A stretch of 50,458 nucleotides of DNA from the IMG/VR virus record IMGVR_UViG_3300027985_001270, positions 1-50,458 of that record; one strand, 5' to 3'. How positions within the stretch are numbered: position 1 is the first letter of the stretch; the number at the start of each line of letters is the position of its first letter. Source of the stretch: a virus. A model generated the notes under the pieces. The model was not told where the DNA came from. It searched no databases and saw only the letters and a list, made by a program, of their open reading frames with translations. Below, piece by piece: positions 6,233 to 43,209 of this stretch. A program made the translations under genes and the position numbers.

Positions 6233-6403
6233 CTATTTTCCATTATGATCTAAAACCGTTCTCCAATATAAACTCTCCTCAATCTTAGCCTTCACCCACG
6301 AATCATAATCCTTATAAGCACTCTCCTTATCATTACTGCCGTTAAAATTAATAACTAATATAAAAGAAATAATCATACCTATAAATAATAGAAGTCTAAT
6401 CAT
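6233..6403 (-). CDS. Small N-anchored membrane protein, 56 aa
   Basis: Start at 6403 (MIRLLLFIGMIISFILVINF) chosen because GGAGG lies 6 bases upstream; a longer reading from 6439 has no such site. One N-terminal span, then a charged periplasmic or cytoplasmic tail (KAKIEESLYWRTVLDHNGK). Last of four consecutive membrane miniproteins from the promoter at 6699-6727. Confidence 0.6.
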   Translation of the reverse strand: MIRLLLFIGMIISFILVINFNGSNDKESAYKDYDSWVKAKIEESLYWRTVLDHNGK

Positions 6404-6404
6404 A

Positions 6405-6488
6405 TTAGTCCTCCAAGTTGCTCTTAACAAATAAAACATATCCCATTAGAACATTGTAAGAGATAAATAAAACAATACTTGTAATCAT
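6405..6488 (-). CDS. Tiny membrane protein, 27 aa
   Basis: MITSIVLFISYN... one hydrophobic span ending FVKSNLED. GAGG lies 5 bases before ATG. Its last codons contain the ribosome site of the next gene, and the stop is 1 base from the next ATG. Too short for family assignment. Confidence 0.5.
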   Translation of the reverse strand: MITSIVLFISYNVLMGYVLFVKSNLED

Positions 6489-6499
6489 ATAAACCTCAC

Positions 6500-6586
6500 T
6501 TATTGTAATATATCAAATAAAATTCTTAATAATATTATGAAAGAGAAAGTAACAATGATAAAAATGTTTTCTTTACTTATTTTCAT
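6500..6586 (-). CDS. Tiny membrane protein, 28 aa
   Basis: MKISKENIFIIVTFSF... then IILLRILFDILQ. Positively charged N-terminus followed by one span (N-in topology by the positive-inside rule). Very strong GGGGGAGGAGG site before ATG, which argues for real translation despite the short length. Confidence 0.55.
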   Translation of the reverse strand: MKISKENIFIIVTFSFIILLRILFDILQ

Positions 6587-6606
6587 ATCCTCCTCCCCCT
6601 TATTAC

Positions 6607-6678
6607 TTACCCATTATCTTTTAATATCACTACCAAAACTACCCAAATCACTAAACCTATTGTTCCTATTACCCCCAT
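6607..6678 (-). CDS. Tiny membrane protein, 23 aa
   Basis: MGVIGTIGLVIWVVLVVILK plus DNG: a single span with a lysine-aspartate end. GGGAGG lies 5 bases before ATG and the promoter start point is about 14 bases upstream. First of four membrane miniproteins in a row. Confidence 0.55.
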   Translation of the reverse strand: MGVIGTIGLVIWVVLVVILKDNG

Positions 6679-6698
6679 ATCGTCCTCCCTATAACAAC

Positions 6699-6727
6699 AG
6701 CATATCACAGAGAAGCTACAAAGTCAA
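6699..6727 (-). promoter_or_regulatory. Sigma70-type promoter
   Basis: TTGACT (6727-6722), 17 bases, TATGCT (6704-6699) preceded by TGA. It lies in the last codons of the transglycosylase gene and serves the four membrane miniproteins that follow. Confidence 0.8.
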
Positions 6728-7139
6728 GAACTTTCTTTCTATATTTTTGAGCAGTCTTAGTATTAACACAATTCTTCTTTACACCACAATTATATCGAGC
6801 AACATAATTTTTAGGATACTTCTTCTTAAACCATCCTAAAATCCTAGCACCATGTTTAATGCTATACTTATAATCATGAGTCAACCTAAACTTATCTAAT
6901 TTATGGAAATCATTAATCTGAGCAATACCACTATCCTTAGTTCTCTTATTCTCAGCACTAAGAATAAATCTAGATTCCACCTTTAACACACCTAAATAAA
7001 CTTTAGTGGGAACATTATACTCAACAGAATAAACCTTAGCATAATAGGCTATTAAGAAAGCTTGAGCAGGATCTAAGTTCTTATTGGCTTCCATTATACT
7101 TACACTTCTCAAATAAAGGGTAATTAATAATGTAATCAT
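6705..7139 (-). CDS. Lytic transglycosylase (SLT domain)
   Basis: A 144-aa soluble lytic transglycosylase-type protein that would cleave the glycan backbone of peptidoglycan. Catalytic Glu lies in GVLKVESRFILSAENKRTKD, followed by SGIAQIND and the domain's terminal ARYNCGVK motif. Hydrophobic N-terminus (MITLLITLYLRSV) may be a signal or anchor. The start at 7139 is chosen over 7151 because GGAGG lies 5 bases before it and the promoter's start point is near 7151. Monocistronic with its own promoter and far from ejection genes, so it may act in lysis or in early wall remodelling rather than in the virion. Confidence 0.8.
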   Translation of the reverse strand: MITLLITLYLRSVSIMEANKNLDPAQAFLIAYYAKVYSVEYNVPTKVYLGVLKVESRFILSAENKRTKDSGIAQINDFHKLDKFRLTHDYKYSIKHGARILGWFKKKYPKNYVARYNCGVKKNCVNTKTAQKYRKKVLDFVASL

Positions 7140-7157
7140 TTGAACCTCCATTTATCC

Positions 7158-7186
7158 AGCATAATACAAACCAATCTAAAAGTCAA
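7158..7186 (-). promoter_or_regulatory. Sigma70-type promoter for the transglycosylase
   Basis: TTGACT (7186-7181), 17 bases, TATGCT (7163-7158). It faces away from the structural promoter at 7268, making this the divergent control region of the genome. Confidence 0.75.
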
Positions 7187-7220
7187 CCCCAACCGTCAAA
7201 TATTTCTTAACGTATTGAAA

Positions 7221-7242
7221 AATAACAAATTTACATTATATG
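7221..7242 (+). promoter_or_regulatory. Intergenic AATAACAAA motif, copy 1
   Basis: AATAACAAATTTACATTATA and TG. First of nine copies that all lie between genes on the plus strand of the structural module. This copy lies just upstream of the sigma70 promoter at 7268. Confidence 0.6.
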
Positions 7243-7267
7243 CCTAATTGTTTAAGAATAAAAAGCC

Positions 7268-7296
7268 TTGACAAAAAGCGCCAAAAATGGTATAAT
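7268..7296 (+). promoter_or_regulatory. Consensus sigma70 promoter of the structural module
   Basis: TTGACA (7268-7273), 17-base spacer, TATAAT (7291-7296) with TGG before it (extended -10). Perfect hexamers at ideal spacing. Transcription would start near 7303 and run into the first structural-arm gene at 7351. Confidence 0.9.
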
Positions 7297-7350
7297 ATAA
7301 TAATAGAACGAGGCAATTTAAGTCAATAAAAAGAAAGAAACGGAGCCTAC

Positions 7351-7746
7351 ATGAGTAATTATAGCAGCAAAGAATTTAAAGAACTTCAACAGTTTTGGTA
7401 TAATAAACTAGCCGAATCAGGTTTTAACGACATAGAAGACTTTAGAATAGAGTACGGAAATCAATCTAATGATCATCTTAAACGTTCTTGTAAAGATTTA
7501 GCACGTAAATATAACCAAGACACTTTCCAACACTTCGCCGATTGCAGAAATTTTCTCTGCCACGGCTATTTCTCGTCCAAAATAGACAAATTTATCTTCA
7601 AAATGTACACAGAAGGGCTATCTCTACGTCAAATAGCTGAATTACTACCTGAAAAACAATCATACTTCTACGTTCACACAAAACTAAAGAAAATTAAATC
7701 TGACCTTAAAGCCTATTTGATCAAGGAATCCGAAGATGACAGATAA
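7351..7746 (+). CDS. HTH protein, possible small terminase subunit
   Basis: A 131-aa basic protein. The C-terminal half contains GLSLRQIAELLPEKQSYFYV, a helix-turn-helix-like segment near residues 88-108. CGGAG lies 6 bases before ATG. As first gene of the packaging/head operon, upstream of the large terminase, and with a DNA-binding look, it is a fair candidate for the small terminase subunit. A transcription regulator is the alternative; the next gene is another terminase-small candidate by position. Confidence 0.5.
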   Translation: MSNYSSKEFKELQQFWYNKLAESGFNDIEDFRIEYGNQSNDHLKRSCKDLARKYNQDTFQHFADCRNFLCHGYFSSKIDKFIFKMYTEGLSLRQIAELLPEKQSYFYVHTKLKKIKSDLKAYLIKESEDDR

Positions 7747-8059
7747 TAATCTTAACCTACCTAAACGTAAGTTAGTGAAATTACAGGAATCTGACGTAAC
7801 AGTAGTACCTCAAGTAGATACTCTCATCACTGACGCCTTATCGATCATAGGTGCTGAGCTTGCACATTATAGATCTAAGACCAAAAAAGGCATTAACCTG
7901 GATATGAAAGAGGCTCGTATAGTTCAATCTTATGTTGAAGCACTAGTTAAACTAAATAAAGAAGCTCGTGAAACAGCTAGACAAGAGGACTTAAGTAACC
8001 TAAGTAATGAAGAACTGCTACAACTAGCAGAAACACTAGTAGCGAATAATAACAAATAA
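7736..8059 (+). CDS. Hypothetical helical protein, 107 aa
   Basis: Overlaps the HTH gene by 11 bases. Helical protein with an LSNLSNEELLQLAETL C-terminus and a basic middle (AHYRSKTKKGINL). Such small helical proteins often lie before large terminases and may help DNA recognition. No specific family recognised. Confidence 0.55.
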   Translation: MTDNNLNLPKRKLVKLQESDVTVVPQVDTLITDALSIIGAELAHYRSKTKKGINLDMKEARIVQSYVEALVKLNKEARETARQEDLSNLSNEELLQLAETLVANNNK

Positions 8060-8070
8060 ACATTAGCATA
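8048..8070 (+). promoter_or_regulatory. Intergenic AATAACAAA motif, copy 2
   Basis: AATAACAAATAAACATTAGC then ATA, overlapping the stop of the 107-aa gene and 39 bases before the next ATG. Confidence 0.5.
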
Positions 8071-8108
8071 AAGATAAAAAAACCCTTAAGATAAACTGGG
8101 ACAGCAAA

Positions 8109-8297
8109 ATGAAAACAAAAGAACTCTGCAACGAAACCTACCGAGACCTATGTGCCGAACTAGGTCAATTACAACTTCAAAAAGACGCCTTAGACAAAAG
8201 AGCTGCCGAAATACTAGCTCAGATCACCCTTCTTAATGCTTTATCGCCCAAATTACAAACAATAGAAGCTTCATTAGAAGTAAACAAAAAGGACTAA
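8109..8297 (+). CDS. Small coiled-coil protein, 62 aa
   Basis: Helical throughout (LCAELGQLQLQKDALDKRA and AEILAQITLLNAL), probably a short coiled coil. GGGA precedes the ATG; it is separated from the GNAT gene by 2 bases. Function unknown. Confidence 0.55.
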   Translation: MKTKELCNETYRDLCAELGQLQLQKDALDKRAAEILAQITLLNALSPKLQTIEASLEVNKKD

Positions 8298-8299
8298 CA

Positions 8300-8788
8300 A
8301 TGAGCGAAAATCCCAACATCGGATCTAAATTTGAATCAACCCCACGTCCACCAGTACGCTTAAGGGTTGCAGTAGCCGAAGATATTAGCTTTATCTTCAA
8401 CTCCTGGCTTAAAAGTTATCGAAACTCAAACCAGGCTCATCTAGTATGTAACTCAATCTACTTCTCTGAGCAACACAAACTCATTGAAAGATTAGTTAAA
8501 GACTCAAAAGTTATAGTAGCCTGTAACAATGAAGACCCTACTCAACTATACGGCTACATCTGTGCTGGCAATATTGAAGGAATCTTCTGCCTACACTACC
8601 TTTATGTTAAACATAGCTTCAGAGGTTTAGGTATAGCAACAGCATTAATTAACGCTTTCGAACACGACGTTTCTTCTGCTGGAATCTTTACCCACATGAC
8701 AAAACCAATGGAACGTTTAGCAATAAGATTTAATCTAGTATATCATCCTTACATCCTTACTAACTACGTAAACAAAAAGGAGGAATAA
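8300..8788 (+). CDS. GNAT-family N-acetyltransferase-like protein
   Basis: A 162-aa protein with the GNAT pattern: N-terminal strand VRLRVAVAEDISFIF, core strand FCLHYLYVKHSFRGLGIATA (motif A, acetyl-CoA loop RGLGIA) and helix LINAFEHDVSSAG. The family transfers an acetyl group from acetyl-CoA to amines. In this packaging-linked position the substrate is unknown; modification of a host or virion protein is possible. It is directly followed (no gap) by the HELLH gene with a shared AGGAGG site. Confidence 0.75.
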   Translation: MSENPNIGSKFESTPRPPVRLRVAVAEDISFIFNSWLKSYRNSNQAHLVCNSIYFSEQHKLIERLVKDSKVIVACNNEDPTQLYGYICAGNIEGIFCLHYLYVKHSFRGLGIATALINAFEHDVSSAGIFTHMTKPMERLAIRFNLVYHPYILTNYVNKKEE

Positions 8789-9169
8789 GTGAGTATCAAA
8801 ATGACCCTCTCAATCAAAGGAACTGATTACGAGATACAAATCGTTTCAGATGCAGCCTATAAAAAACTACTTGGAAGTGGAAGCGCTGCACTAACAGATA
8901 GAGAGAACAAAGTAATGATATTTAACGAGAAGTTCATAACCGCTGGAACAGTTAGACACGAACTCCTTCATGCTATTTATGGTGAAACTCATGTAGAATC
9001 AGCTGACCTAGCTCCTGATGAAGTAGAAGAAATCTTTGCCTCAATAGTAGATTATCAATTTAATAACATAATCTTATGGACTGAACAAATATTAAACAAA
9101 GTGCTATCTAAGAATAACAAAAGTAAAACAAAGGACATTTATGAACGAGAACGAAATAAAAGAGCTTAA
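8789..9169 (+). CDS. Putative zinc peptidase (HELLH)
   Basis: GTG start directly after the GNAT stop, with AAAAAGGAGG upstream. The motif VRHELLHAIYGE contains HExxH at residues 57-61, and EVEEIFASIVDYQ carries glutamates that could be the third zinc ligand. Length 126 aa. The family resembles small phage HExxH proteins of unknown target. The tail is basic (KDIYERERNKRA) and overlaps the next gene by 29 bases. Confidence 0.6.
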   Translation: MSIKMTLSIKGTDYEIQIVSDAAYKKLLGSGSAALTDRENKVMIFNEKFITAGTVRHELLHAIYGETHVESADLAPDEVEEIFASIVDYQFNNIILWTEQILNKVLSKNNKSKTKDIYERERNKRA

Positions 9170-9305
9170 AAAGAAACTAAAGGAACTGTCAAAGAACGAC
9201 CTCGTTCGTATGGTCCTTAAGTCTGCCACAATGGTTTCAGTATTAGAAAAAGTATGCAGTGATCTTAAAGAAGAAAATGACTCTCTTAAAAAAGGAAGCA
9301 ACTAA
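9141..9305 (+). CDS. Small coiled-coil protein, 54 aa
   Basis: MNENEIKELKKKLKELSKND then a hydrophobic helix (LVRMVLKSATMVSVLEKV) and an acidic end. AAAGGA lies 6 bases before ATG. Its stop overlaps the start of the ClpP-like gene (TAATG), so the two are probably translated together, suggesting a partner or regulator of the protease. Confidence 0.55.
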   Translation: MNENEIKELKKKLKELSKNDLVRMVLKSATMVSVLEKVCSDLKEENDSLKKGSN

Positions 9306-10021
9306 TGAAACATTTAACCTTAGCAATTATGATCCTACTAGCACTAGCACTATCTTCATGTGAATCAGTTAGAGTACATAAAATAAAAAACGTTGTGCCA
9401 AACAAACCAGTTGAGGTAACTCTAACTACTAAAAACACTGTAAACATCATCGGAGAAGTAAATGAAGACTCTATGAGCAAAGCAGCTAAAGAACTAGCAC
9501 TCCTTAGAGCCAATAACCCAAAAGAAACTATCTATATCGTAGTAAACAGCCCAGGTGGATCAGTAACTGCAGGTATGAAATTCATTACATTCGCTAACGG
9601 CATAGACAACGTTAAAACTATCACAATCACTGCAATCTCTATGGGTTCAGCAATCGTAGAAGCTTTACCAGGAGAGAGACTAATAGTCCCTAATGCTACC
9701 TTTATGTTTCACAGAGCAGCAGGATCAGTAAGTGGATACTTTGATGGTGAAATAGAAACACGTTTAGCCTTCTATAAATCTTTAATAGGTGCCCTTGACA
9801 AATCAAATTCTGACCGTATTGGTATCCCACTAGAAGAATATAAAGCTAATGTACTACGTGAATGGTGGGCTTACGGAGACGAAGCAATTAAATTAAATAT
9901 GGCGGATAGAGTAGCTAAAGTAAAATGTAGTGTAGACCTAATTAAAGCAGAAGAAACTGTAATAGTAGCATCATTCTTTGGAGCATTCGAAAAGAAAATA
10001 TCTAAGTGCCCACTATTATAA
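9305..10021 (+). CDS. ClpP/SppA-like serine protease with a lipobox
   Basis: A 238-aa protein of the ClpP/crotonase fold. Visible motifs: NSPGGSVTAG (81-90, oxyanion loop), ISMGSAIVEA with catalytic Ser112, and TFMFHRAAG with His136. REWWAYGDEAIKLNMADRV matches the usual family end, although the Asp position here reads Glu after Arg170. Unusually, residues 1-19 form a lipoprotein signal (basic start, hydrophobic core, LSSC), predicting an N-terminal lipid on Cys19 and export to the periplasm. Its location before terminase, portal and scaffold is where prohead proteases normally lie. Whether it matures the prohead or acts in the envelope is unresolved. Confidence 0.8.
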   Translation: MKHLTLAIMILLALALSSCESVRVHKIKNVVPNKPVEVTLTTKNTVNIIGEVNEDSMSKAAKELALLRANNPKETIYIVVNSPGGSVTAGMKFITFANGIDNVKTITITAISMGSAIVEALPGERLIVPNATFMFHRAAGSVSGYFDGEIETRLAFYKSLIGALDKSNSDRIGIPLEEYKANVLREWWAYGDEAIKLNMADRVAKVKCSVDLIKAEETVIVASFFGAFEKKISKCPLL

Positions 10022-10042
10022 TAACAAATTTACATACTTATA
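10020..10042 (+). promoter_or_regulatory. Intergenic AATAACAAA motif, copy 3
   Basis: AATAACAAATTTACATACTT then ATA, overlapping the stop of the protease gene and 55 bases before the next ATG. Confidence 0.6.
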
Positions 10043-10096
10043 GAGCAAAAAAACTTTATCGCCAAAATAAACAACGTAAACAAAAAGGACATTTAA

Positions 10097-10384
10097 ATGA
10101 GCCCCAAAATCAAAGCAGTTAAACTGTATCAAGCCGTCATCTTTGACAAACGATCTGAAACCTATTTCACAACTCTTCCAGTATCTAATAAAATCAGCCC
10201 AGAGATTAGATTGGTTATGGAAATAATGAGTATTGAAATTAAAAGTGCTTCAGAAACTATCTTAGTACCTATTACAAACGTATCCTGCATCTACTTAATG
10301 GACAACAGTGCTGACGATTACAAAGAGAACGTTAAGAAGATTAAAGCTGAAAAAGGCACACTAAAATCACAAGACATTAAATAA
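10097..10384 (+). CDS. Hypothetical protein, 95 aa
   Basis: AAAAAGGA precedes the ATG. Mainly beta-like in the first two thirds (KLYQAVIFDK and SETILVPITNVSCIYL), then a basic tail (ENVKKIKAEKGTLKSQD). It lies directly before the large terminase, whose own ATG lacks a good ribosome site, so terminase translation may depend on this gene. Function unknown. Confidence 0.6.
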   Translation: MSPKIKAVKLYQAVIFDKRSETYFTTLPVSNKISPEIRLVMEIMSIEIKSASETILVPITNVSCIYLMDNSADDYKENVKKIKAEKGTLKSQDIK

Positions 10385-10392
10385 GCTTAATA

Positions 10393-11865
10393 ATGACCTT
10401 ATCAAAGAAACTAGCCATTATAGCAGAATTAAATAAAAGGAGATTGGAGACTGAAAAGCCTTCTTTCTCCTTCTATAACTTCGCCTTTGATAAGCAAATA
10501 GAATTCTTTAAAGACTCCGGTCCACGATTTAGAACCGCCGTATGTAGTCGTCGTGCTGGTAAAACTGTTGGAGTCGCAGCAGATCTTATAGATACCTGTC
10601 TAACAGAATCAAACGTAACCTGTCTTTACATAACCATAACAAAAGATAACGTTCGTCGAATAATCTGGGCAGATATTCAAAAGATCATAGAAGACTATAA
10701 AATCCCGTGCCGTATGAATAACCTCTTAATGGAAATAAAATTCCCTAACGGTTCTCGTATAATCACAGGTGGTTCTAAAGACAAATCAGAAATAGAGAAA
10801 TTCCGAGGCTTAAAGCTAAAAAAAGTATACATCGATGAGGTACAAAGTATGAGAGATCATATAAGAACCCTTATCGACGATATTATCATTCCCGCACTAA
10901 GAGACTTGCGAGGATCAATATACTTAATAGGTACCCCAGGTCCAGTAAAAGCAGGAGCCTTCTTTGACTATAGCCATAACCAAGAGTGGCATAACATTAA
11001 ATGGACAGCCTTTGATAATCCTCATATGCACAATCCAGAAAAAGGTCTGGACCTAGAGGAGACATTAAGAGAAGAGCGAAAACTAAGAGGGATTGACGAA
11101 AACGACGCTTCCTACCAACGTGAAACGTACGGAGCCTGGATAGAAGACACCGACTCTCTAGTAATTAAATATAATGAAGCTATTAACGACTATGATCACC
11201 TTCCTCCTAGTGACTTATTATATATAATGGGAGTAGATATAGGTTTCAACGACTCAGACGCTCTAGCAGTTCTAGCCTACTCAATGAAAACTAATGAAGT
11301 CTACCTCGTAGAAGAAGTTGAGAAAAATAAACAGGATATAACCGAACTAGCACACGAAATAAAAAGATTACAAGCCAAATATAAACCAGTTAAAATGGTC
11401 ATGGATGCCGGTGCCCTAGGTAAAAAGATCCAAGAAGAGTTAAGACTTAGGCACCAATTAGCCATTGATGCAGCAGATAAGAACCGTAAATTTGAATACC
11501 TTGAGTTCATGAACGCTGATTTACGCAAAGGAGTCTTAAAGGCTCATAAAGACAGTCTATTTGCCCAAGACTCAAAGCTAGTAACATGGGATAGATCCGA
11601 TAAAGAGAAGCTAAAAATATCGACTATATACCACTCAGATATCATGGATGCAGTATTATACGCTTACCGTGAATGTCGTCACTACTATAAAGAAGATGTA
11701 CGCATAACTCACGGCATCAACAGTAACGAATTCATGGATGAACTAGAAAGAAAAGAAGCTGAATCCCTACAACGTAAAGAAGAAAGTCTAGATACCTGGG
11801 AATATGAACAAATGCTTGACGAAGAATCAAGAGAGTTAAACGAATTTGGAGATGATTGGATATGA
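10393..11865 (+). CDS. terL: Terminase large subunit
   Basis: A 490-aa DNA-packaging motor: ATPase followed by nuclease, docking to the portal. Walker A is CSRRAGKT (51-58), Walker B is VYIDEVQ (145-151), and a coupling motif LIGTPGP follows at about 178-184. The RNase H-like nuclease begins MGVDIGFNDSDAL with Asp282, continues with VMDAGALG and ends with HSDIMDAVLYAY. Length is normal for a tailed-phage terminase. The ATG is 8 bases after the preceding stop with no clear Shine-Dalgarno sequence, pointing to translational coupling. The stop overlaps the next start (ATGA). Confidence 0.95.
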   Translation: MTLSKKLAIIAELNKRRLETEKPSFSFYNFAFDKQIEFFKDSGPRFRTAVCSRRAGKTVGVAADLIDTCLTESNVTCLYITITKDNVRRIIWADIQKIIEDYKIPCRMNNLLMEIKFPNGSRIITGGSKDKSEIEKFRGLKLKKVYIDEVQSMRDHIRTLIDDIIIPALRDLRGSIYLIGTPGPVKAGAFFDYSHNQEWHNIKWTAFDNPHMHNPEKGLDLEETLREERKLRGIDENDASYQRETYGAWIEDTDSLVIKYNEAINDYDHLPPSDLLYIMGVDIGFNDSDALAVLAYSMKTNEVYLVEEVEKNKQDITELAHEIKRLQAKYKPVKMVMDAGALGKKIQEELRLRHQLAIDAADKNRKFEYLEFMNADLRKGVLKAHKDSLFAQDSKLVTWDRSDKEKLKISTIYHSDIMDAVLYAYRECRHYYKEDVRITHGINSNEFMDELERKEAESLQRKEESLDTWEYEQMLDEESRELNEFGDDWI

Positions 11866-12107
11866 ACATAAACGAAATTAAAGAACTTATTTTGTGGATG
11901 AAAGCCAATAAAGTTAGAAAGTTTAAAAATGCAGACTTTGACGCTGAACTATCTGATCTAGCCTTCATAGATGAATTAAATCAACCACTTACCTCACCAG
12001 ACAAAGTCAAAGAGTTCATCCCAGGAGGCTCTAACTCCTTAATGGATACAATGCAACCAATGTCAAAAGAGGAAGAAGACGAATTATTATACTGGTCAGG
12101 TAAATAG
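11862..12107 (+). CDS. Hypothetical protein, 81 aa
   Basis: ATG at 11862 overlaps the terminase stop; an in-frame TTG six bases earlier is less likely. Helical N-terminus (INEIKELILWMKANKVRKFK), acidic C-terminus ending EEEDELLYWSGK. A portal- or terminase-associated accessory protein is possible from position alone. The original terminase-to-portal spacing is interrupted after this gene by the HNH element. Confidence 0.6.
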   Translation: MNINEIKELILWMKANKVRKFKNADFDAELSDLAFIDELNQPLTSPDKVKEFIPGGSNSLMDTMQPMSKEEEDELLYWSGK

Positions 12108-12108
12108 A

Positions 12109-12137
12109 TTGACTAAATATAAGTAATATGATAGTCT
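12109..12137 (+). promoter_or_regulatory. Own promoter of the HNH homing endonuclease
   Basis: TTGACT (12109-12114), 17 bases, TAGTCT (12132-12137) preceded by TGA. Predicted transcript starts about 10 bases before the endonuclease ATG, leaving just the AGGAGGG ribosome site. Confidence 0.6.
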
Positions 12138-12153
12138 ATATTTAGGAGGGTTT

Positions 12154-12693
12154 ATGAGCAAGAAAATAGACATGGTAGGCAAGAAGATTGGTGATTGGAC
12201 AATAGTTAGCCAAGCTCATTCTACTAAAAATGGAACTATCCATTGGAATTGTATATGTAAATGCGGTCATAGAGGGATTGTAGCTGGAACAGATTTAAGA
12301 AAAGGAGAATCCTCATCTTGCAGAAAGTGTGGACATAAAAGAGCTGCTAATAAGATAAGAATTTATTCTACTAAAGAAGCAAAAGAAAGAAAATTATATA
12401 CTACTTTTAAAGCATCATCTAAATATAGGGATAAAAATAATAGTTTAAAATTAGAAGATTTCCTAAAATTAATAAGCAAAGAGTGTGAGTATTGTGGAGA
12501 AAAGCCCTTAAATGTGTCCCAACAAGGTTTAGTATATCAGGGAATAGACAGAGTAGATAATAAAAAAGGATATGAGATTGATAATGTAGTCCCTTGCTGT
12601 AAAATATGTAATAATGCTAAACATACGATGACAAAAGAAGAATGGGATTCTTGGAGACTTCGCCTAGCTAAAAAAACCTTAAATATCAAATAA
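12154..12693 (+). CDS. HNH homing endonuclease
   Basis: A 179-aa free-standing HNH endonuclease. N-terminal zinc-binding half: CICKCGHRGIV then SCRKCGHKR (four Cys). C-terminal HNH half: CEYCGEKP, GIDRVDNKKGYEIDNVVPCC and CNNAKHTMT, carrying the Asp-Asn-His type active site and two zinc CxxC pairs. Such enzymes cut allelic sites lacking the gene and spread with it. Between terminase and portal genes it breaks an otherwise continuous packaging operon; it has its own promoter, a strong AGGAGGG site, and codon use richer in A/T third positions than its neighbours, all signs of a mobile insertion. Confidence 0.9.
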   Translation: MSKKIDMVGKKIGDWTIVSQAHSTKNGTIHWNCICKCGHRGIVAGTDLRKGESSSCRKCGHKRAANKIRIYSTKEAKERKLYTTFKASSKYRDKNNSLKLEDFLKLISKECEYCGEKPLNVSQQGLVYQGIDRVDNKKGYEIDNVVPCCKICNNAKHTMTKEEWDSWRLRLAKKTLNIK

Positions 12694-12728
12694 ATTCAAT
12701 ATCTTAAGCAAATCAAACATATATAAGC

Positions 12729-12751
12729 AATAACAAATATACATAAACGTA
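12729..12751 (+). promoter_or_regulatory. Intergenic AATAACAAA motif, copy 4
   Basis: AATAACAAATATACATAAAC then GTA, 35 bases before the portal ATG and just after the homing endonuclease gene. Confidence 0.6.
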
Positions 12752-12785
12752 GATTATTAATATAAATATAACAAAAGGCTTATAT

Positions 12786-14705
12786 ATGACCGAATATTTG
12801 GGCTACACGGGAATTACAGAAAATGCAGGTTTACACTGGTGGTTAGAGGATGATCAAAACATCCACAACGCCGTTTTCGGACACGTTCAATACCTAACAA
12901 CCTCTCAAGCCTATAGATCCGTAGACAATATCCGCAACATGCGACTCTATGCTAACTATGACGTAGTAAGCCTAAGTAGTTATAATCATTCACGTGTAGA
13001 TAGCATGAACAACACTACCCACCGTGTAACCCTTAATGTCATTCAATCCATGATTGATACCGTAGTCTCAAAAATAACAAAAAACAAACCAAAACCAACC
13101 TTTCTAACTGACGGCGCTGACTGGGAACTACAACAAAAAGCTAAAAAACTAACCAAATTCTGTGAAGGTGTATTCTACGGTGCAAAAGTCTACCAAGAAG
13201 CGACTAAAGCCTTTATAGACGCTTGTATCTTTGGAACAGGAGCCGTTAAATTCTTTGCCTGTGATGGAGAAATTAAATGTGAGAGAGTTCTAATAGACGA
13301 AATTCTAACCGATGACGTTGAATCCTACTATGGAAAACCTAGAACCTTACATCAAACAAAGTTTATACACAAAGATATTCTTAAGGAAATGTTTCCTGGA
13401 AATGATCACCTTATAGATGAGGCAACAATCTATAATCCATCTAACTCTATTGGTGGTTACAATAAAAATAAACATATGGTTTTCGTAGTAGAATCCTGGC
13501 ACCTTCCTTCAGGAAAAAAAGCCAAAGACGGTAAGCATACAATCACCATATCAAACAAAACTCTCCTATCAGAATCTTATACAAAAGAATCTTTTCCTTT
13601 CATATTCTTAAAGTGGAATGAACGCCCAACCGGCTTTTTCGGTCAAGGTATTGCAGAAATGCTTACCGGTATCCAATTAGAAATGAATAAGATTTTGAAA
13701 ACTATCCAAATCTCTATGCACCTCGTCTCTGTACCTAAACTATTTGTTGAAGCAAGTTCTAAAATTGTAACCGCCCACTTAGACAATAAAATTGGTGGTA
13801 TTATAAAATATGCAGGTGTTAAACCAGACTATAGCCCACTTGGGGGCGTACCTCCTGAACTATTCCAACACCTAGAACGTCTATACACAAAAGCCTATGA
13901 AATAATAGGAGTTTCAAGTCTATCTGCACAAAGTCAAAAACCATCCGGACTTGATGCAGCCGTAGCCCTACGTGAATTTAACAACATAGAGTCTGAGCGC
14001 TTCATGTCTGTAGGAATCCGCTATGAACAAGCCTTCATGGACGCCTCATCTTTAATATTAAGTCTTGCAAAAGATCTATACGATCAAAACGGAGAGTTTA
14101 GCATTAAGGTTAAGGGTAATTCATTTATTGAAACCATTAACTGGGAAGATGTAAACATGGAAGACGATAAATACATGATGGAAGTATTTCCTACTTCAGC
14201 TCTAAGTAGCACACCAGCTGCACGCCTTCAAGACGTAACAGAACTTATGCAAGCGGGCTTTATATCTAAAGAAGACGGTATGAAACTGCTAGACTTCCCA
14301 GACCTTAAAGCTACTACTAACTTATATAACGCAGCCCTAGAAGATATAGAAATGACAATAGACCGTATGATGAGCAAAGGTGAATATCAACCACCTGAAG
14401 CCTATCAAAATCTATCACTCGGCATGACTAAAGTTCAGCAAGCCTATCTTCTAGCTAAAACCCAAAACGCTCCAGAAGAACGTCTAGAACTTCTCCGTCG
14501 CTGGGTTGAAGATGCATCTGCACTAATACAGAAAGCAACAGAAGCCGCAGTCCCTCCTGCCCCTGTTCCAGGGATGGAGGCTGCTGCCCCCCAAATACCA
14601 GGAGTTGAATCGCCAACTGCAGCCCCAACTGCAATACCCGAAGCAGCTCCTGTTTCTCCCTTAATGCCACTACCAGGAGCAGGAGAACCAGTACCCGGAG
14701 TTTAA
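12786..14705 (+). CDS. Portal protein
   Basis: A 639-aa podovirus-type portal: forms the dodecameric ring at one capsid vertex, through which DNA is packaged and ejected. Supporting features are its position after terminase and before scaffold/capsid, its length, and sequence typical of these portals: a central segment KWNERPTGFFGQGIAEML, a wing/crown region around QSQKPSGLDAAVALREFNNI, and a C-terminal helix-rich part. The last 60 residues are Pro/Ala/Glu-rich and probably disordered (PPAPVPGMEAAAPQIPG), pointing into the capsid as a barrel-like or flexible tail. The ribosome site is weak (AAAGG) but preceded by the repeated intergenic motif. Confidence 0.85.
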   Translation: MTEYLGYTGITENAGLHWWLEDDQNIHNAVFGHVQYLTTSQAYRSVDNIRNMRLYANYDVVSLSSYNHSRVDSMNNTTHRVTLNVIQSMIDTVVSKITKNKPKPTFLTDGADWELQQKAKKLTKFCEGVFYGAKVYQEATKAFIDACIFGTGAVKFFACDGEIKCERVLIDEILTDDVESYYGKPRTLHQTKFIHKDILKEMFPGNDHLIDEATIYNPSNSIGGYNKNKHMVFVVESWHLPSGKKAKDGKHTITISNKTLLSESYTKESFPFIFLKWNERPTGFFGQGIAEMLTGIQLEMNKILKTIQISMHLVSVPKLFVEASSKIVTAHLDNKIGGIIKYAGVKPDYSPLGGVPPELFQHLERLYTKAYEIIGVSSLSAQSQKPSGLDAAVALREFNNIESERFMSVGIRYEQAFMDASSLILSLAKDLYDQNGEFSIKVKGNSFIETINWEDVNMEDDKYMMEVFPTSALSSTPAARLQDVTELMQAGFISKEDGMKLLDFPDLKATTNLYNAALEDIEMTIDRMMSKGEYQPPEAYQNLSLGMTKVQQAYLLAKTQNAPEERLELLRRWVEDASALIQKATEAAVPPAPVPGMEAAAPQIPGVESPTAAPTAIPEAAPVSPLMPLPGAGEPVPGV

Positions 14706-14727
14706 ATAACAAAATTACATATATGTA
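14705..14727 (+). promoter_or_regulatory. Intergenic AATAACAAA motif, copy 5
   Basis: AATAACAAAATTACATATAT then GTA, overlapping the portal stop and 63 bases before the scaffold ATG. A GCCTC...GAGGC hairpin follows at about 14734-14754. Confidence 0.65.
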
Positions 14728-14789
14728 AATGAGAAGCCTCGCTACTTTTAGAGGCGGCAATTATGCCAACAAGTAACTAAGGAGAATTT

Positions 14790-15713
14790 ATGTCAGATTT
14801 CATGGGTGCATTTAGCACCGAAAGTTCTATGGACGCATCAAACGGAGATATCTCAACAGGTGAAGCAGTAGTAAATGAACTAGCTGATAATCCAGAATCA
14901 GTAGAAGCAGAAGCTGAAGTAGTTGAAGAAGTAAAAAAAGAAGAACCTAAAAAAGAAGAAGATGCATTCAGCCGTAAATTTGCAGCACTAAGCAAAAAAG
15001 AGCGTCAGATCCGCCAGCGTGAACAACAACTTAACGCTAAAATGGCAGAATTAGAGGCAAAGTTAAAAGGATTAGAACCAAAAGAAGAAGTTAAGGCTCC
15101 TGTAATACCTATAGAAAAGAGATTACGAAGTAATCCTCTAGAAACCCTAAAAGATTTAGGATTAAGCTACGAGAAACTAACTGAACTAGCTCTTAATGAT
15201 GGGAAAATGTCAGTAGAAGATAGAATGGAACTTATGAGAGAAGAATTAGAAAGTGCTCATAAGTCAGAAATAGAAAAAATTAGAGAAGAACTACTAGAAA
15301 AAGAAAAGAAAACAGAACAAGAAAAATATGATGAAGTAATTCAAAATTTCATGGTCGAGCTTACGAGTTTTGTCAATAATACCGAAGATTATGAACTCAT
15401 CCGAGCAAATGATGCAGTTTCTCTGGTCTACGACGTTATTGAGCAACATCATGCGGAAACCGGTCGCATCTTGAACAACAAAGAAGCCGCTGACCTTGTC
15501 GAAGCCCACTTATTAGAAGAAGCACAAAAGCTCTTCAAGTTAAAAAAATTAGGTGCCATTAGGGCTCCTGAGGTTTCTAAAAAGCCAGAATCGAAACCAT
15601 TATCGCCAACGCTTTCAAACAGTAGTGCCCAAACTATGTCAGATAAGACTAGTAAATTGATGGATGACAGTGAACTTAAAAAGGCTGCAGCATCACTACT
15701 TAAATGGGATTAA
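14790..15713 (+). CDS. Capsid scaffolding protein
   Basis: A 307-aa, highly charged, coiled-coil protein directly before the major capsid gene, the usual place and character of a podovirus scaffold, which guides coat assembly inside the prohead and then leaves. Acidic disordered start (EAEAEVVEEVKKEEPKKEED), long coiled coil from about residue 65 to 180 (KKERQIRQREQQLNAKMAEL), and a C-terminal helix (DSELKKAAASLLKWD) that would bind coat subunits. AAGGAG site. No protease domain is fused, so the ClpP-like protein could be the maturation enzyme if one exists. Confidence 0.8.
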   Translation: MSDFMGAFSTESSMDASNGDISTGEAVVNELADNPESVEAEAEVVEEVKKEEPKKEEDAFSRKFAALSKKERQIRQREQQLNAKMAELEAKLKGLEPKEEVKAPVIPIEKRLRSNPLETLKDLGLSYEKLTELALNDGKMSVEDRMELMREELESAHKSEIEKIREELLEKEKKTEQEKYDEVIQNFMVELTSFVNNTEDYELIRANDAVSLVYDVIEQHHAETGRILNNKEAADLVEAHLLEEAQKLFKLKKLGAIRAPEVSKKPESKPLSPTLSNSSAQTMSDKTSKLMDDSELKKAAASLLKWD

Positions 15714-15721
15714 TTATTAAC

Positions 15722-15741
15722 TTTATTTATTTATTTATTTA
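15722..15741 (+). repeat. (TTTA)5 microsatellite in the capsid gene leader
   Basis: Five perfect TTTA units, followed by TTTTTTAAA, 27 bases before the major capsid ATG. Copy number could change by slippage. The AU-rich leader could bind ribosomal protein S1 and favour strong translation. Confidence 0.8.
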
Positions 15742-15767
15742 TTTTTTAAATTAACACGGAGATTTTT

Positions 15768-16973
15768 ATGGCTTTAGATATGACTTCATTTGCCCCAGCG
15801 CTAAAACAATTATACCCAGAAAAAAGAATTGAAAACATGGTATACAAAGATAATCCTTTGTTTGCCCTTTTAGCCAAAGACACTAACTTCTATGGCGAAT
15901 TAATGAAACTTCCTATTAAATATGGTGCTCCTCAAGGTTCATCTTCAACTTTCGCTACTGCTCAAGCTAACAAAACTAGCTCTTTATTGAAAGCATTCTT
16001 AATTACAAGAAATAAAGAATATGCTCTAGCTTCTATCGATAATGAAACAATCGAAGCTTCTAGAAACAACAGTGGCGCTTTCATCGAAGCTGCTAGCTTT
16101 GAAATTGATGGTGCTATTGAAACTGCCGGTCGTAACATCGCTGCCGCTCTTTTCGGTACAGGATCAGGTTCTAGAGGACAATCTTCTGCTGCTGCTACTG
16201 GTACAAGCATTACTTTAAGTGATGTTGAATCAGTTACTAACTTTGAAGTTGGTATGGAAATTGTATTTTCTACTGCTGATGGCGGTGGAACTGTAAAATC
16301 AGGTTCAGTAACTGTTACTCACGTTAATCGTGATAGCGGTGTACTAACTGTAGATGCCCTTACTGCTATTGACGGTGGTACAGGTATTGCTGCTAGTGAT
16401 TATATCTTCAGAGAAGGTGACTATGATAGTAAATTAAAAGGTATCCAAGCATGGTTACCAGCTTCTGCTCCATCTTCAACTCCATTCTTTAACGTAGATC
16501 GTTCAACTGATCCAACACGTCTTGCTGGTATCCGATATGACGGTTCAGCTCTTCCAATTGAAGAAGCTTTAATCAGTGCTGCTTCTAGAGTTGCTCGTGA
16601 AGGTGGTAAACCAGACTACTGCTTCATGAACTACAGCAAATTTGCTGATCTTGAAAAAGCTCTTGGATCAAAAGTTCAATATATTGATCTTAAAGCTAAC
16701 GCTGAAATCGGTTTCCGAGGAATGTTAATCAACGGACCTCGCGGACCAATCAAAGTTGTAGCTGACCAAAACTGTCCAGGTGACAGAGCCTTCATGCTTT
16801 CTATGGAATACTGGAAACTTATGAGTTTAGGTGCTGCTCCTCGTATTTTAGACATTGACGGTCTTAAAATGCTTCGTGAATCTTCAGCTGATGCTGTAGA
16901 AGTACGAGTTGGCGCTTACTTACAATTAGTATGTCGTGCTCCAGGCTTCAACGCTAACATTAAATTAGTTTAA
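15768..16973 (+). CDS. Major capsid protein (HK97-like)
   Basis: A 401-aa coat protein. Begins MALDMTSFAPALKQLYPEKR, and the core pattern (N-arm, E-loop near GELMKLPIKYGAPQGSS, spine helix near IEAASFEIDGAIETAGRNIA, C-terminal VEVRVGAYLQLVCRAPGF) fits HK97-like podoviral coats. Residues about 150-205 (TGTSITLSDVESVTNFEVGM) look like a small inserted beta domain that could decorate the shell. Codons favour GCT, CTT and TCT far more than neighbouring genes, consistent with the highest expression. CGGAG site after an AU-rich leader. Confidence 0.85.
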   Translation: MALDMTSFAPALKQLYPEKRIENMVYKDNPLFALLAKDTNFYGELMKLPIKYGAPQGSSSTFATAQANKTSSLLKAFLITRNKEYALASIDNETIEASRNNSGAFIEAASFEIDGAIETAGRNIAAALFGTGSGSRGQSSAAATGTSITLSDVESVTNFEVGMEIVFSTADGGGTVKSGSVTVTHVNRDSGVLTVDALTAIDGGTGIAASDYIFREGDYDSKLKGIQAWLPASAPSSTPFFNVDRSTDPTRLAGIRYDGSALPIEEALISAASRVAREGGKPDYCFMNYSKFADLEKALGSKVQYIDLKANAEIGFRGMLINGPRGPIKVVADQNCPGDRAFMLSMEYWKLMSLGAAPRILDIDGLKMLRESSADAVEVRVGAYLQLVCRAPGFNANIKLV

Positions 16974-16986
16974 TTTTCAATAATGT

Positions 16987-17010
16987 AGGGGGGAGTCACA
17001 TCCCCTCTAT
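16987..17010 (+). terminator. Terminator-like hairpin after the capsid gene
   Basis: AGGGGGGA-GTCACA-TCCCCTCT forms an 8-bp stem with a 6-base loop, followed by a short ATTT. The U-run is poor, so partial termination or mRNA 3'-end protection is more likely than a full stop. Confidence 0.5.
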
Positions 17011-17029
17011 TTCCCCTCCACTTTAATCA

Positions 17030-17052
17030 AATAACAATTCTACATCATTAAT
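17030..17052 (+). promoter_or_regulatory. Intergenic AATAACAAA motif, copy 6
   Basis: AATAACAATTCTACATCATT then AAT, between the capsid terminator-like hairpin and the 62-aa gene. Confidence 0.5.
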
Positions 17053-17123
17053 AGTCTAAAAGTCTATTCTTTGAAGTTATTTATTGTACTTAGTTATAAC
17101 TATCAACCTATAGGCTCATCAAT

Positions 17124-17312
17124 ATGAAAAAAATAATCAAAAAAATAACTCTAGGTCAAGCCATTGCTCTCATAGATGGTGATAAAAAATTTGATTACCT
17201 ACTAGAAAATTACCTAACAGAAAAGAACTATTCAATAAAAACAATACCTTACATAAACTGGATCAAATTCGTAGAGAATTACTATAAAGTAGAAATAACA
17301 AATATACCCTAA
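17124..17312 (+). CDS. Hypothetical protein, 62 aa
   Basis: MKKIIKKITLGQAIALIDGD then a helical remainder ending KVEITNIP. Weak ribosome site (GG 10 bases upstream) but a clean AT-rich codon pattern and an isolated position after the repeated motif. Function unknown; could be a small head protein. Confidence 0.4.
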   Translation: MKKIIKKITLGQAIALIDGDKKFDYLLENYLTEKNYSIKTIPYINWIKFVENYYKVEITNIP

Positions 17313-17329
17313 TAGGACATTAAGTCCTA
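17313..17329 (+). other. Small hairpin before the first MANRNFNR gene
   Basis: TAGGAC-ATTAA-GTCCTA, a perfect 6-bp stem with a 5-base loop directly after the preceding stop. No U-run, so probably an RNA structural element. Confidence 0.35.
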
Positions 17330-17387
17330 ATAACAACAGTAGGCTCTTCCATTGCCGGATGAGACTAAATTAAACTAGGAGTTTACC

Positions 17388-17759
17388 ATGGCAAATCGTA
17401 ATTTCAATCGTCGTCAAGCCCTTGAAAAAGAAGTCAAAGACATTTATGCAACTATTGCAATTGGAGCCACAGGCGCCCCAACACTTACAACAGGTGTAGG
17501 TATCGCTTCTGTTTCTAGAACCTCTCAAGGTCTTTTCAGAATCACACTAGATGACAAATTCATCAGTCTTAAAAGCGTAAAAGTTATCCATGAAGTATCA
17601 ACTGCTGAAGATTTAACATTCCAAGTAAAAGCTGAAGATGTAGCTGGTTCAACTAAATCAGTAGATATTCTATCTCTTACTTCTGGCGTAGCTACTGACC
17701 CATCTGATGGTGCCATTCTTCATGTGAAAATTGAACTTAAAAACTCTTCTGCTATATAA
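17388..17759 (+). CDS. Head-proximal structural protein, paralog 1
   Basis: A 123-aa protein starting MANRNFNRRQALEKEVKDIY. It shares this N-terminus and its C-terminal part (FQVKAEDVAGSTKSVDIL... IELKN) with the next gene, so the two are tandem paralogs. Beta-rich with an N-terminal basic helix that could fasten it to the capsid or connector. Located between coat and adaptor genes; a capsid decoration or head-completion role fits, unproven. AGGAG site. Confidence 0.6.
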   Translation: MANRNFNRRQALEKEVKDIYATIAIGATGAPTLTTGVGIASVSRTSQGLFRITLDDKFISLKSVKVIHEVSTAEDLTFQVKAEDVAGSTKSVDILSLTSGVATDPSDGAILHVKIELKNSSAI

Positions 17760-19963: not shown

Positions 19964-20530
19964 ATGATAGTATATAAAATAGAGCATAAAATAATAAAAA
20001 AAGTTTATATTGGTAGAACCAATAGAAAATTATTAGCTAGGGTCTGGCAACATATAAGAGATCATTCTCCAATAGGAAAAGCAATAACAGATTTAGGGAT
20101 AGAGAATTTTGATTTTCAAGTAGTTTTTACTTCTGATTGTGTGGAGCAAATAAAACAAAAAGAAGCAGAATTAATTTTATCCTACAACTGTATTCACCCA
20201 AATGGATATAATCAGGAATATGGGAAAGATAATTTAACAGGAATTAATTTAAATTTTGATAAAAATACCAAAAATTGGAAGTTAAGAACTACTAGAGATA
20301 AAAAAAGAATAACCTTGGGTTCATTTCATAGTAGAGAGGAAGCATTAGAATACTATGATTATTGTTTAAAAGTGGATAAGTGGGATCTTTATAAGATACC
20401 TAGAGTATCTAAGTTTAAAAATAATAAATTTAGATTAAGAGTTTGGGATGGCAAAAAAAGAGTATATTTAGGGATATTTAAAACAAAAGAAGAGGCTTTT
20501 AACTTTTACAGGAAGAAAATATATGGCTAG
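19964..20530 (+). CDS. GIY-YIG homing endonuclease with AP2-like repeats
   Basis: A 188-aa free-standing homing endonuclease. Residues 1-85: GIY-YIG nuclease (VYKIEHKIIKKVYIGRT, HIRDHSPIGKA, catalytic Glu in QKEAELILSYN). Residues about 105-188: two AP2-like DNA-binding units with WKLRTTRDKKRITLGSFHS and FRLRVWDGKKRVYLGIFKT. No Shine-Dalgarno sequence precedes the ATG; its own promoter would give a leaderless mRNA. The gene is more A/T-rich in codon choice than its neighbours and its last 8 bases overlap the next structural gene, whose start and ribosome site lie inside it. Signs of a mobile insertion in the tail operon. Confidence 0.85.
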   Translation: MIVYKIEHKIIKKVYIGRTNRKLLARVWQHIRDHSPIGKAITDLGIENFDFQVVFTSDCVEQIKQKEAELILSYNCIHPNGYNQEYGKDNLTGINLNFDKNTKNWKLRTTRDKKRITLGSFHSREEALEYYDYCLKVDKWDLYKIPRVSKFKNNKFRLRVWDGKKRVYLGIFKTKEEAFNFYRKKIYG

Positions 20531-39025: not shown

Positions 39026-39480
39026 TGAAACACACCTTCATGCTACCAATAAAAGGCTTTTCGATTAATTCCTTTTATACTGCAAATAGGAGATTTAAAA
39101 CTTCTGCTGCACGAGAATGGACTATTACTGTACAGCATTTTTTAAAGGATTCTAAAATACAAAAAAAATTAGAAAATTTAAGAGATTATTTTAATCCTCA
39201 AAAACATGTATTTGAAATAACCTTAAAATTTTATTATCCAAAAAATAAATTATTTTCTAGTACTGGAGGGATAAGTTCCAAATCTTTTGATTGTTCTAAC
39301 GTAGAAAAGCCATTAATAGATATATTATTTTTGCCAAAATATTTTGAAGAGACTCCAAACTTAAATATAGATGATAAATATATTGTTAAATTGCTTTCAG
39401 AGAAAAAAATATCTAGAGACAATAAATCCTATTATATAGAGATAGAGATAGTAATCAAGGATTTTTCTTTAGATTCTTGA
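39025..39480 (+). CDS. RusA-like Holliday junction resolvase
   Basis: A 151-aa protein. SSKSFDCSNVEKPLIDILF with LNIDDKYI fits the RusA active-site pattern (DxxN-x2-K-x3-D ... DD), which cuts four-way DNA junctions before packaging. N-terminal half is beta-rich (KHTFMLPIKGFSINSF). AAGGA site. It is the last plus-strand gene; its last 26 bases overlap the end of the convergent endonuclease VII-like gene, and no terminator is visible between them. Confidence 0.7.
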   Translation: MKHTFMLPIKGFSINSFYTANRRFKTSAAREWTITVQHFLKDSKIQKKLENLRDYFNPQKHVFEITLKFYYPKNKLFSSTGGISSKSFDCSNVEKPLIDILFLPKYFEETPNLNIDDKYIVKLLSEKKISRDNKSYYIEIEIVIKDFSLDS

Positions 39481-39925
39481 ATTTAGTAAGATATGATATA
39501 GCATTATTTAATATATCAATATTATCAGAAAAACTACCTAAAGCTGTATTACATTTTCTACACAATAAGCCTCTAACTTGTCCAGTAACATGATCGTGAT
39601 CTACATTAGGAGTGCCATTAAGTTCTCTGCCACATATGCCACATTTACCATCTTGTAAAAGAAATAGATTATCTTGAGTTTCTAAGTCAATATTATACTT
39701 TCTTTTTATAAGTGCATTTCTTCTTTTTTTGATGTTATTTTTCACATAATTCTTTTCATATTCTTTTCTATACTCCTTATGATCAGCAACCCATTTTTTC
39801 GTCTTCTCTATATCGCATTTCTTACAACATCCACTATTTATTTTTTGTCTAGATACAGACCAATTATCATCAGTTAAAGATATACCACAGATTAAACAAT
39901 TTGTTTTTTTATCTCCTCTAGCCAT
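39455..39925 (-). CDS. Endonuclease VII-like HNH nuclease
   Basis: A 156-aa protein. N-terminal zinc pairs CLICG and CCKKC; basic linker; C-terminal T4-endonuclease-VII-type core KCGICGRELNGTPNVDHDHV, TGQVRGLLCRKCNTALGSF. Members resolve branched DNA; free-standing members can also be homing enzymes. GAGG site 7 bases before ATG, start overlapping the preceding stop (TAATG). With the RusA-type gene next door the phage would have two junction-cutting enzymes, or one of them is mobile. Confidence 0.8.
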   Translation of the reverse strand: MARGDKKTNCLICGISLTDDNWSVSRQKINSGCCKKCDIEKTKKWVADHKEYRKEYEKNYVKNNIKKRRNALIKRKYNIDLETQDNLFLLQDGKCGICGRELNGTPNVDHDHVTGQVRGLLCRKCNTALGSFSDNIDILNNAISYLTKFKNLKKNP

Positions 39926-41345: not shown

Positions 41346-42242
41346 TTAAGCCTCCATCTCTGTTAAACGTTTGCTAGTCATATTTAAATCTACAACCAAA
41401 TCTCTTGATTCTACAAACACACTTAACGAACTTAAAACCTGCTCAATAGCACTTGAAGTTGAGAATAATGTACCAAGCAATATAGTATGATTTAGAAAAC
41501 TTGGCACCAACATACAATAAGGAAATATCACACTGATCTGTCCATAGAAACTAGTATACCACGACAAATACTTCTGACGCAAGGCTAATTCTTGCCAGTT
41601 TGCAATTATATATTTAAGACTCGGCAGCTCCAACCGTAACCCATTATTATAAACAATAATATCTCTTCTTAATTCAGCCTCTAAACTCTCTTGATGATAC
41701 TCTGCTACAATCAACTTATTAGCAACTCTCTTAGACAGTAAAGTACCCGCAATCGCATAAACTAACACAGCTACAAGCATCCACCACTTAGCTACCGCAG
41801 CCAGTATACACAAAAACACAGGTAATCTAACTGAAGAGTCTAAAATAGCCTTAACCAATGCAATAGAGGTCTTAGCAAAGCGTAAAGGGTCATCTTGTAC
41901 GCGCTGTTCTACCACACTCACACCCTCTTTATGCTTATCTCTGGACTTTAAAATATACTTGTTAAATAAAAACTGTCTAACACCAAACTCTAAATACCTT
42001 GTATAAAAAGAAGTTAATCCATATATAAGAACATGAATAAGAGCTAGTCCAGTAAATATAGCAAGACCTAAATAAATCTTAGGAGCATCATACTGCTGTA
42101 TAGAATTGTAAAAAAATTCTCGCCATTTCAGAAAGCAGGTAGACATGCCGATCATTATCAACACTCCCCCAAATACTATCCCTGTTAATTTCTTATTCTC
42201 TCTTAAAGCCGGAAATAGTAATTTTAAAGCTGCTAAATACAT
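41346..42242 (-). CDS. SbmA/BacA-family inner-membrane transporter-like protein
   Basis: A 298-aa polytopic membrane protein with the pattern of SbmA/BacA, a proton-driven dimeric peptide/antibiotic importer. Matching landmarks: FYNSIQQYDAPKIYLGLAIF, VEQRVQDDPLRFAKTSIALV (SbmA: AQRVQEDTMRFA...), LIVAEYHQESLEAELRRDI, and the end IEQVLSSLSVFVESRDLVVD, MTSKRLTEMEA. It is shorter than bacterial SbmA, mostly at the N-terminus. AAGGAG site lies in the tail of the GIY-YIG gene. In a phage it could alter uptake of peptides or block another entry pathway; its real role is unknown. Confidence 0.75.
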   Translation of the reverse strand: MYLAALKLLFPALRENKKLTGIVFGGVLIMIGMSTCFLKWREFFYNSIQQYDAPKIYLGLAIFTGLALIHVLIYGLTSFYTRYLEFGVRQFLFNKYILKSRDKHKEGVSVVEQRVQDDPLRFAKTSIALVKAILDSSVRLPVFLCILAAVAKWWMLVAVLVYAIAGTLLSKRVANKLIVAEYHQESLEAELRRDIIVYNNGLRLELPSLKYIIANWQELALRQKYLSWYTSFYGQISVIFPYCMLVPSFLNHTILLGTLFSTSSAIEQVLSSLSVFVESRDLVVDLNMTSKRLTEMEA

Positions 42243-42817: not shown

Positions 42818-43209
42818 CTCTTAATGACCTTATTAATAACATCGCCAACAACTCCAGCACTTTTTTCCAATGAGCGACCTCCAACAAATCCTACTAAGAA
42901 CCACTGAGCTAGTTCATAGAATTTCTCATTAGGATGTGCTATATCAAAGGAAGCTGCCAATATAATTCCTACTATAACAACTGAACAAACAGGTCTCCAA
43001 ATTGCCGTGATTATATGCGGAGAATTAGCCTCAACTTCCTGAAGCTTAACTTTCTCCTTTTCTAAATCAATCATTTTTGATTCTACATCTGCTTTAATTT
43101 TTGCAAGAGCATTCTCTAAAGCCATCCGATCAGCATCGCTGGTATGTAAATTTTTAACAATTTCCACAGCTGGTGAAAATAGGCTTGAAATCCACTGTAA
43201 AATGGGCAT
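42814..43209 (-). CDS. 3-TM holin
   Basis: A 131-aa protein with the pattern of the three-span holin family (first described in gene-transfer agents): amphipathic start (LQWISSLFSPAVEIVKNL), a coiled coil (ALAKIKADVESKMIDLEKEK), then HIITAIWRPVCSVVIVGIIL and FYELAQWFLVGFVGGRSLEK. It would make the membrane hole that lets the M15 enzyme reach the wall. Strong AGGAGG site. The stop overlaps the next start by 4 bases. Confidence 0.75.
   Translation of the reverse strand: MPILQWISSLFSPAVEIVKNLHTSDADRMALENALAKIKADVESKMIDLEKEKVKLQEVEANSPHIITAIWRPVCSVVIVGIILAASFDIAHPNEKFYELAQWFLVGFVGGRSLEKSAGVVGDVINKVIKR

Follow-up and report, generated by a model that had tools for sequence, protein, structure and literature searches.

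The 50,458-base stretch analysed here (the window) is an IMG/VR virus record of tailed-phage-like content, with a P22/SU10-type portal, an SU10-like capsid and a TerL by Pfam and PHROG matches. It encodes a ClpP-type serine peptidase, ClpP2, whose sequence and relatives indicate that it is very probably exported and works in the host cell envelope, not on the phage head. We hold the assignment as an envelope protease with high confidence; its gene is probably expressed with the late genes, and the protein is probably not a prohead protease.

The ClpP2 frame opens with an ATG at 9305, preceded by a Shine-Dalgarno-like AAGGAA, and its product begins MKHLTLAIMILLALALSSCES. A first-pass annotation had read a lipobox (LSSC) ending at Cys19 of this ClpP-like protein, and inspection of the sequence bore this out: the motif is L16-S17-S18-C19, with Glu at +2. 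The features expected of a signal peptidase II substrate, namely a charged n-region (here containing K2), a hydrophobic h-region and the lipobox cysteine, are all present in MKHLTLAIMILLALALSSC, and this is the sole lipobox ORF in the window with a Shine-Dalgarno sequence. The window protein is probably lipidated at Cys19. Features of the locus are collected in Table 1.

Table 1. Features of the ClpP2 locus and of the corresponding slot in relatives
Feature	Position	Strand	Basis
Sigma-70-like promoter, 12/12, TTGACA-17-TATAAT, before rightward gene run	7268..7296	+	motif
GNAT-family protein, conserved upstream neighbour	8300..8788	+	Pfam Acetyltransf_7 5e-7; conserved order
HExxH...E zincin-like protein (phrog_1233), in slot of relatives' cytoplasmic ClpP1	8789..9169	+	phrog_1233 2.8e-8
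54-aa coiled-coil-like partner, motif SKNDL	9141..9305	+	recurs upstream of exported proteases
ClpP2, predicted exported ClpP-type serine peptidase, 238 aa	9305..10021	+	Pfam, AF2, Foldseek, tree
Lipoprotein-type signal MKHLTLAIMILLALALSS plus Cys19	9305..9361	+	sequence; hydropathy 3.2
Predicted catalytic Ser112 (AISMG)	9638..9640	+	Ser in 61/61 ClpP2a
Predicted catalytic His136 (FMFHRA)	9710..9712	+	His in 61/61 ClpP2a
Glu186, aligned with ClpP catalytic Asp	9860..9862	+	E 57, D 2, Q 2 among 61 ClpP2a
Cys208, invariant, predicted disulfide partner	9926..9928	+	61/61 ClpP2a
Cys235 of C-terminal 'CP' motif, invariant	10007..10009	+	61/61 ClpP2a
p95, conserved 95-aa protein between protease and terminase	10097..10384	+	conserved order
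Large terminase subunit (TerL)	10393..11865	+	phrog_2 1.3e-44
Scaffold-like protein of the portal-MCP interval, which has no protease	14790..15713	+	gene order; weak phrog_206 scaffolding match 0.08
Exported trypsin-like proteases	L055:3801-4553; L057:3657-4409; L075:1918-2640; L194:1057-1809		same slot as ClpP2

By profile and by predicted structure, the protein has a ClpP fold. Residues 40-205 match Pfam CLP_protease (PF00574) at 2.1e-21 (77.1 bits against a cutoff of 20.2), and a search of PDB sequences retrieved ClpPs at 1.5e-16. An AF2 model (pLDDT 87.7, pTM 0.78) was matched by Foldseek to Bacillus subtilis ClpP with an E value of 1e-15 and a target TM of 0.77-0.83. Because the catalytic-type Ser112 and His136 are invariant, ClpP2 is probably an active enzyme with proteolytic activity; D201 is also invariant in its clade, at a position other than that of Glu186. 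ClpP2 thus shares with ClpP (peptidase family S14) the fold, the catalytic Ser and His, the GGS oxyanion region and the handle helix region, but differs from it in having an export signal, Glu in place of the usual Asp, and a C-terminal extension that carries two invariant, paired cysteines. ClpP is the classic cytoplasmic protease fed by an ATPase, and a ClpP barrel lacking an unfoldase normally cuts peptides only. The periplasm has no ATP, and no ATPase partner is expected for ClpP2 there.

To judge whether the signal is genuine, relatives were collected with a TerL profile, which yielded 80 loci, and with a protease profile, which matched 158 viral contigs, 80 of which were kept. Dereplication left 61 ClpP2a, 13 ClpP2b, 29 ClpP1 and 22 bacterial ClpP sequences. 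In the resulting tree the exported-type proteases fall into two clades, ClpP2a, to which the window protein belongs, and ClpP2b, each with 99/100 support and both separate from the companion ClpP1 and the bacterial ClpPs; a topology uniting the two, as a single origin of export would give, was not rejected (p-AU 0.41). One distant ClpP considered as a member of the exported clade (L001) fell outside it on a long branch.

Signals were called by a simple hydropathy cut-off on the N-terminus, not by SignalP. By this rule 72 of the 74 dereplicated exported-type proteases (59/61 ClpP2a and 13/13 ClpP2b) begin with a hydrophobic segment, versus none of the 29 companion cytoplasmic ClpP1 and none of the 22 bacterial ClpPs. 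Both misses are in ClpP2a: L064 has a weaker, still signal-like start, and the start of L128 is mis-called. Signals are conserved in distant relatives even though their sequences are unrelated, and they differ in type: L062, L064 and L068 carry signal peptidase I-like signals, L009, L010 and L051 have apparent membrane anchors, and the lipobox is rare, being found in the window protein and possibly in L007, L105, L148 and L176. Conservation thus extends to export but not to lipidation. The earlier proposal of an exported, lipid-anchored protease therefore stands in its first half, on the conserved signals and even cysteine numbers, and gives way as a general rule in its second, most relatives having signal peptidase I-like signals or membrane anchors.

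Cysteines tend to be paired in proteins of oxidising compartments. An even number of domain cysteines was found in 73/74 exported-type proteases (60/61 ClpP2a, 13/13 ClpP2b) versus 13/29 ClpP1, these being related sequences and not independent observations; the ClpP1 value is chance. The even numbers point to a disulfide, which in the window protein would join Cys208 and Cys235. The invariant pair of ClpP2b, C96/C112, differs from that of ClpP2a. Among bacterial relatives (31 loci) nearly all proteins are of the cytoplasmic type. The exceptions are L084, in a Saprospiraceae MAG, and L105 and L106, in a Deltaproteobacteria MAG, in which an exported ClpP2 lies between SbcD- and SbcC-like genes; these contigs are probably phage DNA binned into MAGs.

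The gene slot itself is conserved and belongs to an operon-like run ahead of the terminase. The usual order in relatives is GNAT, ClpP1 or an HExxH protein, a small coiled coil, exported ClpP2, p95 and TerL. The window has the HExxH...E protein, whose metal-site residues H57, E58, H61 and E80 are invariant across 12 homologues. As the first-pass annotation had observed, the stop of the 54-aa ORF overlaps the protease start: its TAA (9303-9305) shares one base with the ATG. A motif search recovered this partner at 31/50 TerL-linked loci, where the overlap is usually 1-8 bases, and the suggested coupling is upheld to the extent that the partner is real and recurrent. Sequence inspection found no signal and no hydrophobic or transmembrane segment in the partner, which is predicted to be cytoplasmic because it has no signal. 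With a perfect promoter and no terminator-like site found on the + strand from 6400 to 17500, expression of ClpP2 together with the terminase and head genes is likely. Other occupants of the region were also seen. L009 (4843-6090) and L051 (854-2083) have, by eye, a FabF-like ketosynthase between ClpP1 and ClpP2 where the coiled-coil gene would otherwise lie, and L009 also carries a desaturase-like gene. In a marine group (L013:7800-8657, L025:2161-3036) a 290-aa protein resembling 2OG-Fe oxygenases by eye lies between p95 and TerL. The larger phages L165, L169, L177, L183, L184 and L191 share a conserved protein of ~200 aa, with no assigned function, downstream of the exported ClpP.

Four loci (L055, L057, L075 and L194) have an exported trypsin-like protease after the coiled coil, and no exported ClpP2 was found in that place. 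The Trypsin_2 matches are 4e-13 and 1.2e-13; the L055/L057 and L194 proteins are membrane-anchored, and the L075 protein has a lipobox, LLGC. That a protein of unrelated fold, but alike in location and chemistry, can fill the ClpP2 slot is an argument for envelope proteolysis as the function under selection. The existence of a widespread branch of viral ClpPs that is exported and apparently stabilised by disulfides, and whose slot an exported trypsin-like protease can take over, implies strong selection for an envelope protease during infection.

Based on these results we lean, by a modest measure, towards the following account as a whole. ClpP2, a ClpP-fold serine peptidase, would be produced together with the terminase and head genes, exported through Sec by its N-terminal signal, anchored in the envelope (in the window probably as a lipoprotein at Cys19) and stabilised by its disulfide. 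There it would cleave host envelope proteins with no need of an ATPase, weakening the envelope late in infection and so, in an accessory role beside holin and endolysin, helping progeny out of the cell. The lysis role and the substrate within this account are guesses, to which we give somewhat less than an even chance. An Amidase_2 gene lies directly upstream of ClpP2 in L121, L125 and L127 (Pfam, 1e-18 to 2e-21 range) and, by eye, in L140; a peptidase M15 gene directly follows and overlaps ClpP2 in L120 and lies one gene later in L176; and an SLT enzyme is near ClpP2 in L185. On the tree, this context requires five changes. The link is only suggestive, as direct adjacency arose in no more than about two independent lineages, a number not far above that which chance might produce. 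Counting against a lysis role, ClpP2 in the window and most relatives lies with the terminase, apart from the lysis genes, and the window's holin, M15 and SLT genes are on the strand opposite to ClpP2. The usual restriction of unfoldase-free ClpP barrels to peptides also weighs against the account.

A stronger form of this idea, in which an exported ClpP-type or trypsin-type protease, often lipid- or membrane-anchored, digests envelope proteins to complete lysis and so does or aids the job of spanins, is tentative and rather doubtful. Like the o-spanin and u-spanin lipoproteins of phages, ClpP2 is a phage-made lipobox protein with a possibly late envelope function; unlike them it is a 238-aa enzyme with an active site, and its partner has no transmembrane segment. 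No match to a spanin family was obtained among the small window ORFs tested, and an Rz/Rz1-like spanin pair was ruled out on the lack of a transmembrane segment in the coiled-coil protein. Another candidate lipoprotein occurs in 9 of the 12 relatives' contigs scanned, and simple replacement of spanins by ClpP2 is therefore unlikely to be the rule. Phages that have no spanin are an acknowledged open question, accounting for 91/677 phages surveyed (PMC6139136). Exported ClpP2 offers a concrete, testable candidate mechanism for such phages.

Alternatively, the exported protease could inactivate surface receptors or outer-membrane proteins, so as to exclude other phages or to spare progeny from loss on debris, a role that the first-pass annotation had offered as an example and that we regard as unlikely. 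Envelope location and protease chemistry fit it, and there is precedent in the phage T5 lipoprotein Llp, which blocks a receptor. In E. coli the residue at +2 sorts lipoproteins to the outer membrane; the lipobox Glu at +2 would favour such sorting, but the rule may not be that of the host. On the other side, we found no link to a receptor and nothing that specifically supports superinfection exclusion or the removal of receptors. The gene runs in the direction of the terminase and structural genes and is neither an early nor a lysogeny gene, and some lineages have endolysin neighbours, all of which points instead to late work in the envelope.

It is improbable that ClpP2 acts as a membrane peptidase of the SppA/NfeD kind, clearing signal peptides or membrane-protein fragments and keeping the envelope or the Sec pathway working during infection. 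SppA and NfeD proteases have a ClpP fold and are active in the absence of an ATPase, and the SppA/SohB and NfeD envelope peptidases share with ClpP2 the fold and, by prediction, a membrane or periplasmic site and independence of an ATPase. The window protease has a weak SppA match (0.006), relatives have weak NfeD1b_N and S49 matches, and several are membrane-anchored. However, these peptidases belong to other sequence families, to which ClpP2 has weak profile matches only (TIGR00706 gives 16 bits against a cutoff of 155), and use the S49-type Ser-Lys dyad; ClpP2 has a Ser-His-acid site of the S14 type, and its ClpP-family matches are far stronger.

That ClpP2 is an ordinary ClpP-type head maturation protease, its hydrophobic N-terminus being a cytoplasmic propeptide, is very improbable. 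Its top PHROG matches are indeed head maturation proteases, and like the PHROG 94/NF045542 enzymes it is a phage-encoded ClpP fold encoded close to packaging genes. Yet it scores 51.3 bits against the NF045542 cutoff of 120, it is predicted to be exported, and its gene lies upstream of TerL, outside the portal-MCP interval; in some relatives ClpP2 is away from the head genes altogether. Signals and paired cysteines are conserved solely in the exported group. In L172, ClpP2 coexists with a separate head maturation protease (phrog_1028, 1.9e-44), a homologue of which is also present in L150, L152, L173 and L181. Together with the trypsin-like replacements in the slot, these observations agree with the earlier doubt that the protein acts on the capsid, and they count against the name 'ClpP-type prohead protease', which for this protein is an annotation habit. 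ClpP matches in phage genomes should not by default be called head maturation proteases. Translation from a start 3' of the signal, which would leave the protein in the cytoplasm, is scarcely credible: the only such start that removes the signal is a GTG at residue 31, it has no Shine-Dalgarno sequence, and distant relatives retain signals of unrelated sequence.

A comparison with 50,697 phage records gave no close relative of the window ClpP2. In tblastn searches of isolated phages, six family members gave matches to the ClpP core only: with relatives as queries no record covered 80% of the query, and with the window protein 7 of 379 did so, all at <60% identity. A BFVD entry from an uncultured Caudovirales phage (A0A6J5KYR7) aligns with the model of the window protein over nearly its full length (231 columns, 33% identity, TMq 0.78) and is probably a member of the family; its name, 'ClpP Protease subunit', makes no mention of export. 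The open-access text searched holds no account of a phage ClpP that is exported.

Some further features of these genomes were noted. On the - strand, the window encodes an SbmA/BacA-like transporter membrane protein (41346-42242; PF05992, 2.5e-24), which is unusual for a phage, and a weakly matched PQ-loop-like membrane protein (43116-43427; 0.008) whose gene overlaps that of the holin; in L136, L138 and L055, homologues of the latter are encoded 5' to the exported protease. HNH- or GIY-YIG-like homing endonuclease ORFs were recognised by eye at 12154-12693, 19964-20530, 39455-39925 and 42233-42817, one of them between TerL and the portal gene. The TerL frames of L059 (from 8846), L117 and L194 (2200-4506) are unusually long or interrupted and seemingly contain inteins, and an ORF of L065 (6774-7220) bears a long SQA tripeptide repeat.
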